Source: a bacterium | Lineage (GTDB): Bacteria; Actinomycetota; Thermoleophilia; Solirubrobacterales; Solirubrobacteraceae | NCBI GenBank assembly: GCA_021323635.1 | Contig: JAJPKQ010000014.1 | Location: 1 to 45,793 of the forward strand | Length of the DNA stretch: 45,793 nucleotides | Direction: 5' to 3' | Shown here: one piece after another, positions 31,184-37,135 of the stretch | How the letters are laid out: each line of letters begins with the position of its first letter | Numbering within the stretch: position 1 is the stretch's first letter | Notes under the pieces: generated by a model | Database searches by the model: none | Told to the model about the DNA's origin: nothing | Seen by the model: only the letters and a program-made list of their open reading frames with translations | Translations under genes and position numbers: made by a program

Positions 31184-32058
31184 GCGCCGATCGCCAGCGC
31201 GAGGAGCGCGCGCCGCTCCTGGGTCATCCCCGCGTCCATCTGCGCGCCACCGACTCCACGAACGCGCGCGCGAAGGAGCTTGCGCTTGCCGGCGCCCCGG
31301 GCGGCACGCTGATCAGCGCCGATCACCAGAGCGCCGGGCGCGGGCGCCAGGGGCGCTCCTGGTGGGCGCCGCCGGGATCATCACTGCTGTGCTCGCTGAT
31401 CCTGCGCACAGAGGCCGCCTCGCCGCTGGCGGCGCTGCGCGACGAGCAGGGGCTCGAGCTGCTGCCGATCCTCGCCGCCACCGCGCTCGCCCAGGTGCTT
31501 GGCCCCCAGGCGCAGATCAAGTGGCCCAACGACGTCCTCTACCCGCGATCGGACGGACGCCTGGGGAAGGTTGCAGGCATCCTGATCGAGCGCCGGTCGC
31601 CCGATCGCTTCGCGGTTCTCGGCATCGGCGTGAACGTCTGCGCGTCGATCGAGCAGGCGCCGCTTGAGCTGCGTGGAGAGATCGCGACGCTCGCTCGCGA
31701 TCAGGCCGCGATCGAGCCGTTGCTGCAAGCGCTGCTGACCGCGCTTGAGGCGCAGCTCCTGGCAGCGCCCGAGCGGGCGCTGGCGGACTTCCGCGCCCGC
31801 GACGCGCTCTACGGCAGGGAGATCGCCTGGCGCACGACCGCGGGCGCCTCGGCGCCCGCCACGCGTGGGCTTGCGCAGGGGATAGACGGCCGCGGCCGGC
31901 TGCTCGTGCGCAGCGCTGAGGGGATGCTAGCCCTCTCCTCCGGCGAGGTGCATCTGTGCGGGGATGGGCGACCGGCGGGCGGGCAGCCCGTGCTCGCGCG
32001 CGGCGCAGGGCTCGGGCTGGCTCAGGATCGGGCTCCGGATCAGGGGCAGCGGCGCTAA
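31180..32058 (+). CDS. birA: Biotin--[acetyl-CoA-carboxylase] ligase, catalytic form without DNA-binding domain
   Basis: The 292-residue ligase has the biotinyl-AMP loop GRGRQGRSW (53-61), KWPND (114-118), and Lys130 in GRLGKVAGILIE, then a small C-terminal SH3-like domain. It attaches biotin to carboxyl carrier proteins. It lacks the N-terminal helix-turn-helix of E. coli BirA, so it should not act as a repressor. It overlaps the SAM hydrolase gene by 4 bp and ends the plus-strand run. The last 35 residues are Gly/Ala/Gln-rich. Confidence 0.92.
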   Translation: MSADRQREERAPLLGHPRVHLRATDSTNARAKELALAGAPGGTLISADHQSAGRGRQGRSWWAPPGSSLLCSLILRTEAASPLAALRDEQGLELLPILAATALAQVLGPQAQIKWPNDVLYPRSDGRLGKVAGILIERRSPDRFAVLGIGVNVCASIEQAPLELRGEIATLARDQAAIEPLLQALLTALEAQLLAAPERALADFRARDALYGREIAWRTTAGASAPATRGLAQGIDGRGRLLVRSAEGMLALSSGEVHLCGDGRPAGGQPVLARGAGLGLAQDRAPDQGQRR

Positions 32059-32318
32059 GCTGCGGCGCGCTCTCGCTCAGATCCGCATCTAGTCAGTATC
32101 GATGCCGAGTGGGGCTGGCGCTCGGCGTTCGCATTTGTCGCGGATGGCGACGTGATCGGCTCAACGATCATCGACGCTCGGCGGAGGCTGGAGCGCGACG
32201 GCCACCTGACGATCACGTTGCCTGACGCGTTACGCGCCGAGGGGGACGAGCTCGCAGCCGGTGTTGACTGCGTAGCCGATCCGCCTGGGCCGCATCACGA
32301 ATCCCGTGGACGATCGAG
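32059..32318. other. Gene-free stretch between birA and fic
   Basis: These 260 bp separate the convergent birA and fic genes. A plus-strand frame through about 32092-32300 reads as a plausible peptide (for example ...STIIDARRRLERDGHLTI...) but has no proper start and no family I recognise; it may be a gene remnant. No strong terminator hairpin was found. Confidence 0.4.
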
Positions 32319-33515
32319 TTACGCCGCCTCGGTCGTCTGCGTGGGCGAGGGGTCCTCGTTTGCCTGACTCGGCTCATCGAAAAGCTGGAGATATTGCTCG
32401 TAGCGGAACAATCTCGAGCGGCGCTGTCCAGTCACCTCTCGCAGCAGGCCGAGCTCCTCGAACTTCGCAACGAGTCGATTGGCGGTAGGGAAAGTGACGT
32501 CGAGCGCCTGACTCACGAACTTGACATTTACGAGTGGCCGCTGAAAGAGATTCGAAAGCAGCTTGAGGCCGTTTGCTCCCGCGTTCTCCATGACCAGCGT
32601 GCGGTGTCCTTCGCGAAGCTCGAAGATCCGCTCAGCCGTCTCGGCTGCTTCTTCGGCGGTCTCGGCCACGCCTTGGAGGAAGAAGCGCAGCCAGCCCTCC
32701 CAGTCGCCCTTTGTTCGTATCGCGGTGAGTCGGTCGTAGTACTCCGAGCGATGGAGCTTTAGGTAGTGGCTGAGGTAGAGGAGCGGCTCTCGGAGGGCTC
32801 CGCCATGAACGAGCAGGAACGTGATCAGCAAGCGTCCGACCCGTCCGTTGCCATCAAGAAACGGGTGGATGCTCTCAAACTGAGCGTGGGCCAAACCGGC
32901 GGTGATCAGGAGCGGCAATGGCTCTTCAGCGTGCAGGAAGCGCTCGAAGTTGTCAAGAGCCTCCGTCATCTCAGGAACAGGGGGCGGCACGAATGTGGCT
33001 TTCTGAAGGGAGGCACCGGCCGGGCCTATCCAGTTCTGTGTCCGTCGAAACTCGCCGGGTGTCGCGTGTCCGCCTCGGCCGTCCTTCAAGAGTTGAGCAT
33101 GGATCTCGCGGATGAGCCGCAGCGACAGCGGCAGCTCATCGAGCCGTCGTAGGCCGTGGTTCATGGCGGCGACGTAGTTGACTATGTCGCCGACGTCGCC
33201 GAGGCGCCCCGGTGCCTCTGGCTCGAGCTCGACTTCGAGAAGATCCTCGAGCGTGCTCTGCGTACCCTCGATCTGCGAGCTGAGGACGGCCTCGCGTCGC
33301 ACGTACATCGCGACGAAAAACTGAGGGTCGGGGATGACCTTGATGACGCCGTCGAGACGACCGAGCGAGAGGTCGGCCTTCGATAGAAGCGCCAGGAGGT
33401 CGTCCTCCAGCACCAACGGCGGATCGGGAGGAAGTGGCGCCGGGACGAAGGCTGTGTAGCCACTCGACTGCGGGACGAAGCGCCCCGAGCGGTCTCTAGG
33501 CGGCGACGAAGCCAT
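32319..33515 (-). CDS. Fic-domain protein with C-terminal winged helix
   Basis: The 398-residue protein has the Fic_N region (GRFVPQSS...FVPAPLPPDPP), a class II inhibitory motif SxxxEG (Ser79, Glu83, Gly84), the Fic core with the complete active site HPFLDGNGRVGR (His217-Arg228), and a C-terminal winged helix-turn-helix (about 305-385). Fic enzymes usually transfer AMP to a target protein, and the glutamate blocks ATP until relieved. The winged helix may bind the paired inverted repeats upstream. Base composition is visibly lower in GC than the flanks, and no antitoxin gene accompanies it. A role in stress, phage defence or toxin-like control is possible but unproven. Confidence 0.92.
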   Translation of the reverse strand: MASSPPRDRSGRFVPQSSGYTAFVPAPLPPDPPLVLEDDLLALLSKADLSLGRLDGVIKVIPDPQFFVAMYVRREAVLSSQIEGTQSTLEDLLEVELEPEAPGRLGDVGDIVNYVAAMNHGLRRLDELPLSLRLIREIHAQLLKDGRGGHATPGEFRRTQNWIGPAGASLQKATFVPPPVPEMTEALDNFERFLHAEEPLPLLITAGLAHAQFESIHPFLDGNGRVGRLLITFLLVHGGALREPLLYLSHYLKLHRSEYYDRLTAIRTKGDWEGWLRFFLQGVAETAEEAAETAERIFELREGHRTLVMENAGANGLKLLSNLFQRPLVNVKFVSQALDVTFPTANRLVAKFEELGLLREVTGQRRSRLFRYEQYLQLFDEPSQANEDPSPTQTTEAA

Positions 33516-33540
33516 GGCTCCTCAAGCCACGTTTGGAACG

Positions 33541-33572
33541 TTATTTGCGCAGAAGGCCATAATCCGAAATAA
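33541..33572. promoter_or_regulatory. Inverted-repeat element, copy 1, upstream of fic
   Basis: TTATTTGCGCA (33541-33551), a 10-nt spacer, and ATCCGAAATAA (33562-33572) form an imperfect dyad (7 of 11 positions pair), starting 26 bp before the fic ATG. The left arm is identical to the left arm of the second copy 90 bp away, so it is probably an operator half of a two-site system. Confidence 0.5.
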
Positions 33573-33630
33573 GACTAGCAACGGGAACGGCTGCTTTCGG
33601 CGGCGTGCATAAGAAGTGGAGCGAGGCCCA

Positions 33631-33662
33631 TTATTTGCGCAGATTCGCCAATGCGTAAATAA
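33631..33662. promoter_or_regulatory. Inverted-repeat element, copy 2, upstream of fic
   Basis: TTATTTGCGCA (33631-33641), a 10-nt spacer and TGCGTAAATAA (33652-33662) form a dyad in which 10 of 11 positions pair. It has the same 11-10-11 layout as copy 1 and lies exactly 90 bp from it. Both are markedly AT-rich for this window. The rest of 33663-33812 shows nothing identifiable except that it may include the worn left end of the neighbouring insertion sequence. Confidence 0.55.
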
Positions 33663-33812
33663 AGGTCGGCCCGAGGACCCCACACGAAAGCGCATTTGAA
33701 TAGCACTGGATGAGCAGTGCCACGACCTGCTCGGCCGTGGCGGCAGAAGGGACCGGCAGCAAGCAGCCCGAAGTCAGCGGTGTAGCGAAGCGCCGCCGAC
33801 CCAGGGGCCACC

Positions 33813-34428
33813 ATGAACGCCGACCTCGAGCTGCTGTGCACTGCATCGCCGACGATTTCCTGCCCAAAGCACGTCCCAATGCACGCCGGAAGATCACCGA
33901 CGCTGAGATCGCAACGCTGCGCGTGGCCCAAGCGATCATGGGGATCCGATCCGATCCACTCTTCCTGGCGGTCGCTGCCAGACGCCTCTGCCATCTCTTC
34001 CAGCTCCTGGCGGAGCGAGCCGCTGCTCACAAGCACCGGCTGCATCTTGCTGATCAGATCGAGGCCCTGATCGCACATTTCGCCCGCCAGAGCCCGGCTT
34101 CTACGCTCAGCTGCTGGTCGTGATCGGTGGCAAGAGCTTCCGCGGCAAGGACTTCGAGGGGCAGATGAGAGCGCTTGGGTCACAGGCGATGCGCCCCCGG
34201 CGCAAGGACGAGCCTGGGCGCGGCCCGCACCTGGCTCCGATCCCTCAGCGCATCGAGTCGATCTTCTGGAGCGCCAAGGAGATCCTCGCGCTCGAGCGTC
34301 ACGGCGCTCGCACACTCAGGAACCTGCGCGTCCGTCTCCGTGCCCGCTTCGCTGCGCTTGCCACGGCGGTTGCGCTCAATCATCGTCTTGGCCGTCCCAG
34401 CCGCTCGTTGGCCTGCTGTGCGGCCTGA
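33813..34428 (+). pseudogene. Decayed IS982-like transposase
   Basis: Three reading frames together give a recognisable transposase. The start MNADLELLCTA is in one frame. The segment DDFLPKARPNARRKITDAE through AVAARRLCHLF is in a second. From about 34100 the third frame gives PGFYAQLLVVIGGKSFRGKDFE through RRKDEPGRGPHLAPI, QRIESIFW and LERHGARTL, up to GRPSRSL. Two frameshifts are therefore present. The middle is also missing: the family has about 100 residues, including the catalytic Asp in a DSTP-type motif, between the YAQLL-like and VVIGDKG-like parts. It cannot make active transposase. It ends 10 bp short of the helicase stop codon. No clear terminal repeats were found. Confidence 0.82.
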
Positions 34429-34438
34429 CGCCGTGGCA

Positions 34439-37135
34439 CTAGTCAACTAGATTCGCCTGCTGCTCGGCCTCTGCGCCCTGCTCGGTCACTGTCGCAGGCT
34501 CCTTTGCGCTCCCGGCGCCCGCCTGCCTGTGCCGGCGACGAGCGCCCTTGCCAGCGCGCTTGGGGAAGTTGCGCAGCAGCTCGCGCGCCAGCGCCGAGGG
34601 CTTGCGGGCCATCCTGGTGCGCGCAGCCCGCAGCGCCTCCTCGGCCTCGGGCGTGTGCGCAAGCGCCGCCGCCAGCAGCGCTGCGGCGACGCGCTTGTCC
34701 TGCTTGCGCGTGGCATGCACCAGCCGGCGCGCGTTGCGCCCGTGCGCGGGCCCCGAGGAGTTGACAAGCAGCCCCAGCAGGCGCTTGGTCTCCGGCCAGC
34801 GCGCTACGGCGTACTGCTCATGGACCTCGCGCGTGTACTCCGCCAGGCGCCAGATCCAGGCATTGGCCTGATCGCGGCGGCCGATCTGCCGCTCGGCAAG
34901 CGCGCGCAGGAGGATCTTTGCCGCCTCGCGGCGCTCCTCGCGCGGCCAGGAGCCGATGATCTCGACAGCCTCGTCGAAGGAGTCAGGGTCGCGGAGCGCG
35001 GCGATGTCGGCGAGCGCGCGGACGCGCACCTGCAGATTGCGGTTGCGCTGCATCGCGGTGAGCAGGAAGACCCGCTTGAGCTCGCCGGAGCGGTCGAAGT
35101 GCAGCATCGTGCGCGCCCGCCGCCAGTTTGCGGGCGTGACGCGATCGCCCGCCAGCGCCGCCCAGAGGTGCTGCTCGGCGCGGTCGAGGTGCTCGACCGC
35201 GATGCGCCACAGCTCGCGCTTGAACACTTCAAAGCGCCGCTCCTCATCTGCGGCGACAGGCACCACCCGTCGCTCCACGCGCACGCGGCGGCCGCGCCCA
35301 CGCCGCACCGGCCCGACCACGATCGCTCCGCCACGGTAGACATCGCGATCGAGGAGCGAATGCAGGGTGACGACCGGGTCGTCGTTCTTCGTGGCGGGAT
35401 GTACGAAGTCGACCACGATCCCCGCCTCCTTGCCGGGATGCCGGCGCGTGACGCGTCCGACGCGCTGCTGGTAGACACGCTTGGAGGCCGTCGGCGCCAG
35501 GTGCATGCAGACGGTCGCGCGGGGGGAGTTCCAGCCCTCCGCGAGCAGCTGCGCGTTGATCAGCACGTCGATCTCGCCGCGCTCGTAGCGCGCGAGCGTC
35601 TGCGCAAGCTCACGCTTGGGTGTCTCGCCGGAGACCGCCTTCGCCTTCAGCCCGGCCTCGCGAAACGCCTGCTCGAGGTTGTAGGCGTGGCGGACGCCCG
35701 CCGCGTAGACGACGCCGGGCAGGGTGTTGAAGCGGGTCTTGTACAGGTCCGCGACAGCCTTGTTGAAGGGGTGCTGGTCGAGCAGCTCGGCAAGCATCTC
35801 CTGGTCGAACTCGGTGTCTACCTCCCCCCGGCGCAGCGGCACCTTGGCGATCGTGCGCACCCCTGGCCCGGGCGGGATGCGGACACATCGCAGCGGCGCG
35901 ATCACGCCGCGCCGCGCCGCCTGGGCGAGGTCGAAGCGGGAGGTCTGCGTCGGGAACAGGTCGGTGACATGGCGCGCGATCAGCGCGCCCGTCGCGGTCA
36001 TGCCGATGAAGACGGGGCCCGTCCAGGTGCGGATCGCGGCGCTCGTCTTCTCGCCCAGCGCGGTGTGCGCCTCATCGCAGATGACGATCGTGTAGGCGCT
36101 TGAGATCGAGCCGGCGTTGCGCACGAACCACTGGTAGGTCTCAACCGTCACCGGCCCGCGCGCCGAGTCCTCGCCCTTGAGCAGCGGACGGCTGATGCGC
36201 TTGGCATAGCCGCGCGTGCGCAGCTCCCCGAGGAACTGGTCGACGAGGTTGCGCCGGTGGGTCAGGATCAGGACGCCGCCGGTGCGCGAGGCCTCGACGA
36301 AGCCGAGCGCGGCAACGGTCTTGCCCGCGCCCGTGGCATGCTCGAACCAGAAGCGCTTGCCGGCGTTGGGGTCCTCCGGACGATCGACATACTCGGCTTC
36401 CTCCTCTTCAGACCAATCGCGCGGCTCCTCCTCCTCGCCTTCGGCATCCTCCTCCTCGAGCGCTGCCGCGGAGGCCTCAAGCTCCTGCTCGCTCTCCTCC
36501 TCGGCTGCGATCAGCTCGATGTCCTCCGCGAGCACCGCCTCTTCAGGCTCGCCCTCGCTGGGGCGGGCCTCCGCTGCGGGCGCTGCGCGCGCACGCCGCC
36601 GCGCGCCCCCTGCCGCGGAGGCGGGCGCCGCCGCAGGCGAGCCGTTGGGCAGGTGCCCGTTTGCGGCCGCCTGAGCGGGCCGAATGCCCTCCGGCGCCCG
36701 CGCGCCGGCCGGCGTCGATCCGGAGAGGCCGTTGGCGGCCTCGCCCGGGTCGGCGCCATGCTGGCCGTTGCCGGCGAGCTCGCGCCCGGACTCCATCAGC
36801 AGCGCCGCAAGGGTGCCCGAGAGCGCATCGACCTGGTGCGCCGAGAGCACGGTGCCGTCTGCCAGCTTGGGCTCCTCCTCTGAGAGCAGGCGTTCGAGGC
36901 CGAGCAGCAGCGAGAAGCTTCGTCGCCAGTCGGTGGAGGGCTCACGCGCGCCCTCCTCCAGCTCGCGCAGCGCCTGGTCTAAAGCGCGGCGGCGCGGCGT
37001 GCCCGGGGCGAGCACGCTGGCGGCGTCCTCGCCCTCATGGAGGAAGCGCTCGCGCGCAAAGCTCTCCGCCCTGGCGAGCTGCTCGGGCTCGATTGTCGGC
37101 GCGGCCGTTGTGGCCGCTGAGGATGTATCAGCCAT
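34439..37135 (-). CDS. SF2 DEAD/DEAH-box helicase with long acidic insertion
   Basis: The 898-residue protein has Walker A HATGAGKT (266-273), DECH-type motif II as DEAH (354-357), motif III MTAT (379-382), and a second RecA domain ending in QRVGRVTRRHPGK, followed by about 330 residues of helical C-terminal region with Arg-rich tracts. Before Walker A, residues 118-258 are Gly/Ala/Pro-rich and then strongly acidic (Glu-rich about 197-250), splitting the Q-motif-like segment LADGTVLSAHQVDAL from the first RecA domain. It is likely a DNA or RNA translocase related to type III restriction-like helicases. The exact role is unknown. Confidence 0.88.
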   Translation of the reverse strand: MADTSSAATTAAPTIEPEQLARAESFARERFLHEGEDAASVLAPGTPRRRALDQALRELEEGAREPSTDWRRSFSLLLGLERLLSEEEPKLADGTVLSAHQVDALSGTLAALLMESGRELAGNGQHGADPGEAANGLSGSTPAGARAPEGIRPAQAAANGHLPNGSPAAAPASAAGGARRRARAAPAAEARPSEGEPEEAVLAEDIELIAAEEESEQELEASAAALEEEDAEGEEEEPRDWSEEEEAEYVDRPEDPNAGKRFWFEHATGAGKTVAALGFVEASRTGGVLILTHRRNLVDQFLGELRTRGYAKRISRPLLKGEDSARGPVTVETYQWFVRNAGSISSAYTIVICDEAHTALGEKTSAAIRTWTGPVFIGMTATGALIARHVTDLFPTQTSRFDLAQAARRGVIAPLRCVRIPPGPGVRTIAKVPLRRGEVDTEFDQEMLAELLDQHPFNKAVADLYKTRFNTLPGVVYAAGVRHAYNLEQAFREAGLKAKAVSGETPKRELAQTLARYERGEIDVLINAQLLAEGWNSPRATVCMHLAPTASKRVYQQRVGRVTRRHPGKEAGIVVDFVHPATKNDDPVVTLHSLLDRDVYRGGAIVVGPVRRGRGRRVRVERRVVPVAADEERRFEVFKRELWRIAVEHLDRAEQHLWAALAGDRVTPANWRRARTMLHFDRSGELKRVFLLTAMQRNRNLQVRVRALADIAALRDPDSFDEAVEIIGSWPREERREAAKILLRALAERQIGRRDQANAWIWRLAEYTREVHEQYAVARWPETKRLLGLLVNSSGPAHGRNARRLVHATRKQDKRVAAALLAAALAHTPEAEEALRAARTRMARKPSALARELLRNFPKRAGKGARRRHRQAGAGSAKEPATVTEQGAEAEQQANLVD

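Follow-up and report, generated by a model that had tools for sequence, protein, structure and literature searches.

Paired 32-bp dyads upstream of a SoFic-type fic gene as candidate operators for autorepression

A SoFic-type fic gene and its product

The window, i.e., the whole 45,793-nucleotide stretch of DNA analyzed here, encodes on its minus strand a Fic protein whose domains and motifs were placed as follows.

32319..33515, minus strand: fic, encoding a 398-aa SoFic-type Fic AMP-transferase with a C-terminal winged helix (Pfam, PADLOC, and structure model)
32376..32579, minus strand: winged-helix codons, residues 313–380 (HTH_13 at residues 319–368 and model helices; coordinates computed by hand from residue numbers)
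32454..32492, minus strand: recognition-helix codons, residues 342–354, FPTANRLVAKFEE (model; the window LDVTFPTAN gives the top partial correlation with the candidate operator)
32832..32867, minus strand: codons of the catalytic Fic motif HPFLDGNGRVGR, residues 217–228, (nearly) invariant in A1 and A2
33264..33281, minus strand: codons of the inhibitory motif SSQIEG, residues 79–84, class II Fic, (nearly) invariant in A1 and A2
33518..33523, minus strand: GAGGAG, resembling a ribosome-binding site, before the fic ATG (read from the sequence)

Fic_N, Fic, and HTH_13 were each detected above their Pfam cut-offs, the latter at 26.7 bits for a cut-off of 26.1, and the PADLOC SoFic profile aligned to residues 19–380 (E = 1.7e-121, 404 bits). 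Against the NCBIfam SoFic equivalog (NF046030), the protein scored 157 bits for a curated cut-off of 550, i.e., it is a relative rather than a strict equivalog, and we therefore refer to it as "SoFic-type". In an AlphaFold2 model built from 36 sequences (pLDDT 87.9), the C-terminal helices (residues 313–325, 331–338, and 342–354) adopt a winged-helix-like arrangement, and the best PDB matches of the model were the Shewanella oneidensis Fic structures 3zcn and 3eqx. Foldseek also matched the model to 7xux (E 8.6e-12), which we take to be the structure of CccR. A preliminary description of this locus had ascribed to the Fic protein a winged helix-turn-helix (HTH) of its own, and both the HTH_13 match and the three model helices bear this out. 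Both the Fic motif and the inhibitory motif near the N-terminus are intact, with SSQIEG following the class II pattern. Taken together, these intact motifs, the SoFic profile match, and the SoFic-like model indicate a class II, SoFic-type AMPylase, so that by its sequence this protein is a SoFic-type anti-phage AMPylase and a putative self-toxic defence enzyme.

Several other reading frames surround fic. At or after its 3′ end, two short ORFs (53 and 54 aa) overlap each other on the minus strand (32055–32377); they look arginine-rich by eye and may be due to chance. AS1, a 47-aa antitoxin whose small downstream gene is described only for E. coli H397 in the available text of PMC12249575, was not identified at the window locus. 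Directly ahead of the promoter region of fic, two plus-strand ORFs (33710–34123 and 34120–34428) have the look, by eye, of a broken transposase and had no Pfam match. Farther upstream, a helicase-like protein of 898 aa is encoded at 34439–37135 on the minus strand (ResIII and Helicase_C in Pfam).

Layout of the paired dyads and the predicted promoter

Upstream of fic, three features could be delineated.

33541..33572, no strand assigned: dyad A, the proximal candidate operator, imperfect with 7/11 arm pairs (genome-wide match to YTATTW-N20-WAATAR)
33631..33662, no strand assigned: dyad B, the distal candidate operator, near-perfect with 10/11 arm pairs (sequence and pattern searches)
33630..33659, minus strand: candidate sigma-70-like promoter TTTACG-18-AATAAT within dyad B (a weak match, predicted)

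Both dyads are 32 bp long with an 11-10-11 layout, open with TTATTTGCGCAGA (at 33541 and 33631, i.e., 90 bp from start to start), and end in AAATAA. Read in the direction of the gene, A is TTATTTCGGATTATGGCCTTCTGCGCAAATAA and B is TTATTTACGCATTGGCGAATCTGCGCAAATAA, and A starts 26 bp, B 116 bp, before the fic ATG (33515). The pair of 32-bp dyads 90 bp apart that had been described in front of fic was thus confirmed from the sequence, along with the layout, common start, and common end. Full dyad symmetry holds for B, with 10 of the 11 arm positions symmetric, but only in part for A, which at 7/11 is a partial dyad recognizable mainly through the outer arms it has in common with B. To call the two elements AT-rich islands in a GC-rich genome was also fair, as the GC fraction is 0.54–0.55 across 33500–33699 compared to 0.60–0.68 in most flanking blocks.

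When searching for the ideal dyad with ≤3 mismatches, B was the only match both in the window (0 of 100 shuffles yielded any) and in the whole genome. The degenerate pattern YTATTW-N20-WAATAR had exactly two matches across the 2.64-Mb assembly, A and B, and the reversed control pattern had none, while the single arm TTATTTGCGCA with two mismatches allowed was unremarkable (3 found vs 3.2 expected). The genome also encodes a second, distant Fic (G000:C27:6656-7474; 29% identity, E 9.7e-16), and this gene does not carry the N20 dyad, since the only two sites in the genome adjoin the fic gene of the window.

TTTACG-18-AATAAT was the sole promoter-like match in 33480–33760 (0.0 expected in shuffles), although a weak one, and the window fic thus has an inverted repeat at its own, predicted promoter. 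A divergent gene sharing this promoter was considered as a reason for the sites and dropped, the ORFs at 33710–34428 being the plus-strand pair with no Pfam match and a broken-transposase look. Among related fic loci (see below), TATAAT follows at +22 from the dyad center in six (L130, L135, L140, L147, L150, and L169), so that the dyad lies in or before the promoter there, and TTGACA falls within the dyad center in two others (L115 and L162). Inverted repeats such as these can in principle also pair as RNA, in which case the dyads would act as hairpins, i.e., as an attenuator or an mRNA stability element. However, their folding was no better than that of shuffles (z = −0.61 for B and +0.89 for A), and arm mismatches across 88 dyads showed no clear G-U excess (7 G-U, 4 A-C, and 19 other, vs 890 Watson-Crick pairs). 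Together with the promoter-like site inside dyad B and the dyad position at TATAAT loci, this makes a role as RNA hairpins extremely improbable.

Dyads and operator arms across fic genes

Next, we evaluated where this site occurs in other genomes. Across 299 genomes of the class, TTATTW-N20-WAATAA was found at 14 places in 12 genomes, and 9 of these 14 sites were directly upstream of a fic gene (by comparison with the fic matches listed, with the site in genome G030 checked separately). The remaining five all belonged to a single family (f9), with no fic in the ~3 kb fetched around each, and outside of this family all eight sites were at fic. As a control, the same pattern with N21 was searched in the same 299 genomes and yielded 12 places, none of them at a fic place among the matches listed; a phylum-wide N21 scan covered a different genome set and was not used for this purpose. 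The reversed pattern likewise gave 12 matches (table sum). Since such totals are alike (14 vs 12), the signal lies in the position of the sites and not in their number. The site in genome G030 is a fully symmetric 32-bp dyad, TTATTTCACTTTTTGGCCCTAAAGTGAAATAA, at a SoFic-type fic gene (L186:440-1669) that sits downstream of an ORF resembling HsdM by eye, and this locus may represent a type I restriction system.

With ≤1 mismatch, exact TTATTTGCGCA was found in the window genome only among the first 31 loci, i.e., arms diverge between loci, and we therefore relied on symmetric-dyad scoring and spacing histograms. For the former, the best gapped dyad in the 200 bp upstream of each gene was compared to dinucleotide shuffles. 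The class set included 90 fic loci (L002–L031 and 60 further stretches) picked down the list of matches; fragments at contig ends, several disrupted reading frames, and the majority of the weakest matches were not included. A significant upstream dyad was detected for 46/90 of these loci at p ≤ 0.05 and 24/90 at p ≤ 0.01, against 3/90 and 1/90 for coding controls and 3/29 and 1/29 for downstream controls. For 80 named loci from many phyla, the corresponding numbers were 45/80 and 26/80 upstream, against 10/76 and 6/76 downstream. About half of the fic loci (44/90 in the class, 35/80 in the multi-phylum set) had no significant dyad. Among seven plasmid-borne relatives examined later, fetched as distinct species or lineages from 40 listed of 1162 found, and including the well-studied strains Agrobacterium fabrum C58 and Picosynechococcus sp. 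PCC 7002, three had a dyad at p ≤ 0.05 and one (Rhizobium acidisoli) had the N22 form described below. A dyad is thus present in cultured strains, namely on plasmid pAQ6 of PCC 7002 (L189, p = 0.015) and, outside the plasmid set, in Delftia tsuruhatensis NBRC 16741 (L139).

Spacing was then compared across 167 pooled loci, from which the duplicates L092, L093, and L095 (identical to L004, L005, and L007, and still inside the 80-locus count) had been removed. YTATT-N(g)-AATAR was found upstream of 31 of these loci at g = 22, and of no more than 6 at any other g between 6 and 36, while YTATT-N22-AATAR was not found downstream of fic at any non-duplicate locus. A search for dyads upstream of other fic genes had been set beforehand as a test able to refute the reading proposed for the window, and the dyad survived it in this N22 form. 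Judging from record titles, the 31 loci include Desulfobacteraceae, Bacteroidota, Omnitrophota, Atribacteria, Gastranaerophilales, Delftia, Chloroflexi, and Synergistaceae, and in most g = 22 rows an AAATA precedes the dyad, at positions −24 to −20. Relaxing the pattern to YTAT-N24-ATAR, i.e., the same 32-bp frame, gave 36 of the 167 loci vs ≤9 at any other spacing, and this frame was present in 9 of the 10 closest loci. A scan of 30 loci restricted to 11-10-11 dyads was merely suggestive, and the spacer scan had no sharp peak at 10, because the symmetric extent varies between loci; the outer-arm spacing test was sharp.

The arms themselves vary by clade while symmetry is kept. In groups drawn by eye, with loci having <120 bp upstream skipped, arms pair with recognition-helix residues as follows: CTTTGAAA with SNPTAR, CCTAACG with RPTALR, TTAATTAA with APTVN, TTCAAGGTT with SVQA, TTATTTCAATTT with FNT, and TTATTT with Y/F-V/P-TA. 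Across 88 dyads, similarity of the symmetric arms correlated with similarity of the recognition-helix core once Fic-domain similarity was accounted for (partial r = 0.164, permutation p = 0.0005), as it did for the 49 strongest dyads (partial r = 0.124, p = 0.0175), with the correlation for the Fic domain given the helix being as large or larger (0.169 for the 88 dyads and 0.268 for the subset of 49). In a scan of nine-residue windows along the protein, the top score was obtained for LDVTFPTAN, where the recognition helix begins (0.121), with LLEVELEPE, far from the HTH, scoring nearly the same (0.119). This suggests that operator arms modestly track the recognition helix, which is supporting but not decisive.

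These patterns also bear on whether the dyads may instead be operators for a separate regulator encoded elsewhere, with the winged helix of Fic regulating catalysis only. Such a role for the C-terminal domain has a precedent in E. coli Sofic, where it is reported to control toxicity by contacting the AMPylase domain, and neither HTH nor transcription is mentioned in the available text of that paper (PMC12249575); moreover, a Coxiella burnetii Fic with a C-terminal HTH, CbFic2, was studied on random DNA with no known specific site (PMC10628234). However, in the window genome fic alone carries the site, the sites accompany fic in distant phyla with arms that differ between clades, and the arm sequence follows, if modestly, the Fic protein. 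We thus consider a separate regulator unlikely.

Probable autorepression by Fic and its relation to known systems

A precedent for autoregulation by a Fic protein is provided by CccR of Yersinia pseudotuberculosis, which combines a Fic domain with a C-terminal HTH and is reported to use inverted repeats close to the −35/−10 elements to repress its own promoter, as established by lacZ fusion, EMSA, footprinting, and ITC; dimerization is needed, and the regulatory and toxic activities are described as independent (PMC9755527). The window locus resembles this system in that a Fic AMP-transferase is fused to a C-terminal HTH and an inverted repeat lies at the gene's own (here predicted) promoter. 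The operators differ, as that of CccR spans 46 bp as AGATAATCAT-N26-ATGATAATCT (10-N26-10), whereas the window has two copies of a 32-bp, 11-10-11 element with other arms, and the likeness would therefore be in how the system works and not in the type of operator. In addition, CccR is reported to be a secreted T6SS effector and is a shown DNA binder, whereas the window Fic is known here from sequence and model.

With SoFic proteins (PADLOC PDLC03963; E. coli H397 Sofic; S. oneidensis SO_4266, 3eqx/3zcn), the window Fic shares domain order, fold, the class II inhibitory motif, and an intact Fic motif. Sofic is described, in an account that also covers class II Fic, as a single-gene, self-toxic abortive-infection defence against phages, dimeric in solution for the E. 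coli protein, the wild-type form of which reportedly proved difficult to clone, even with a lac operator in control (PMC12249575). The same account calls both its regulation in uninfected cells and its activation by phage elusive and, in the text available, differs from the window fic in reporting no operator or autoregulation (PMC12249575). DNA binding by SoFic is stated as not yet demonstrated, while CbFic2, likewise a Fic with a C-terminal HTH, binds DNA at nanomolar affinity and has its (de)AMPylation altered by DNA; it differs from the system proposed here in that no specific site is known and in that the study addressed DNA-stimulated (de)AMPylation rather than autorepression (PMC10628234). 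In the open-access literature searched, largely at the level of titles and abstract openings, we found no operator at SoFic genes, and CccR was the only Fic-HTH protein found with a mapped operator. An operator at a Fic-HTH gene is thus known from CccR, and the candidate operator class conserved at SoFic genes, with its 32-bp geometry and clade-specific arms, would represent a new variant.

Given a dyad over the predicted promoter, the CccR precedent, and the dimeric state of E. coli Sofic, we interpret A and B as autorepression operators, i.e., as sites through which the winged helix of Fic probably represses fic. From these sequence comparisons, we infer that Fic would bind the dyads, that binding would repress the gene, and that the purpose would be to restrain a phage-defence toxin. 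Specifically, a Fic dimer would place its two winged helices in major-groove faces ~21 bp apart, i.e., two DNA turns, on one face of the DNA. Once bound, the dimer would cover the fic promoter and block the polymerase, repressing its own gene and limiting the amount of a self-toxic defence enzyme. Dyad B would be the strong site, covering the only sigma-70-like promoter, and dyad A a weaker second site between promoter and start codon that could act as an additional roadblock.

The preliminary description had gone further and proposed autorepression by looping, in which Fic dimers on A and B would hold a 90-bp repression loop. Two sites 90 bp apart would suit such a loop, and paired dyads are also found at L115, L156, and L134. 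However, the spacing across these four loci with two N22 dyads varies from 90 bp in the window to 80 (L115), 51 (L156), and 41 bp (L134), 90 bp amounts to 8.57 helical turns (10.5 bp each), the closest homologs have a single dyad, and the repeats are equally well explained by independent or cooperative side-by-side binding. With a 90-bp distance that other loci do not share, looping is unsupported, and we regard it as highly unlikely, while the autorepression part of the proposal has good comparative support, given dyads at fic across phyla, fic beside most sites, the modest tracking of the recognition helix, and the CccR precedent. The same description also suggested that AMPylation state might affect DNA binding; among other Fic-HTH proteins, CbFic2 is reported to change its (de)AMPylation upon DNA binding (PMC10628234), while for CccR regulation and toxicity are reported as independent (PMC9755527). 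Several half-sites are arrayed at the fic promoters of L156, L115, L134, L020, and L190, and such half-site repeats suggest cooperative arrays.

Beyond autorepression, the operator might itself belong to the phage sensor: operator-bound SoFic dimers might be held by the DNA in a non-toxic state, either deAMPylating or autoinhibited, such that loss of operator DNA during infection, through degradation of the host DNA or through titration by that of the phage, would both derepress the gene and free the enzyme to AMPylate. We see this as a speculative extension with little chance of being correct. If it were true, the clade-specific operators would be insulated, self-addressed switches of one defence gene across phyla.

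Overall, a 32-bp candidate operator conserved in many phyla offers a concrete and cheap test of whether SoFic genes are under transcriptional self-restraint, and the dyads predict a DNA target for the winged helix of each clade. Autorepression by the Fic protein itself would mean that the mode of control demonstrated by experiment for CccR, the single such case we found, extends to a broad defence family.
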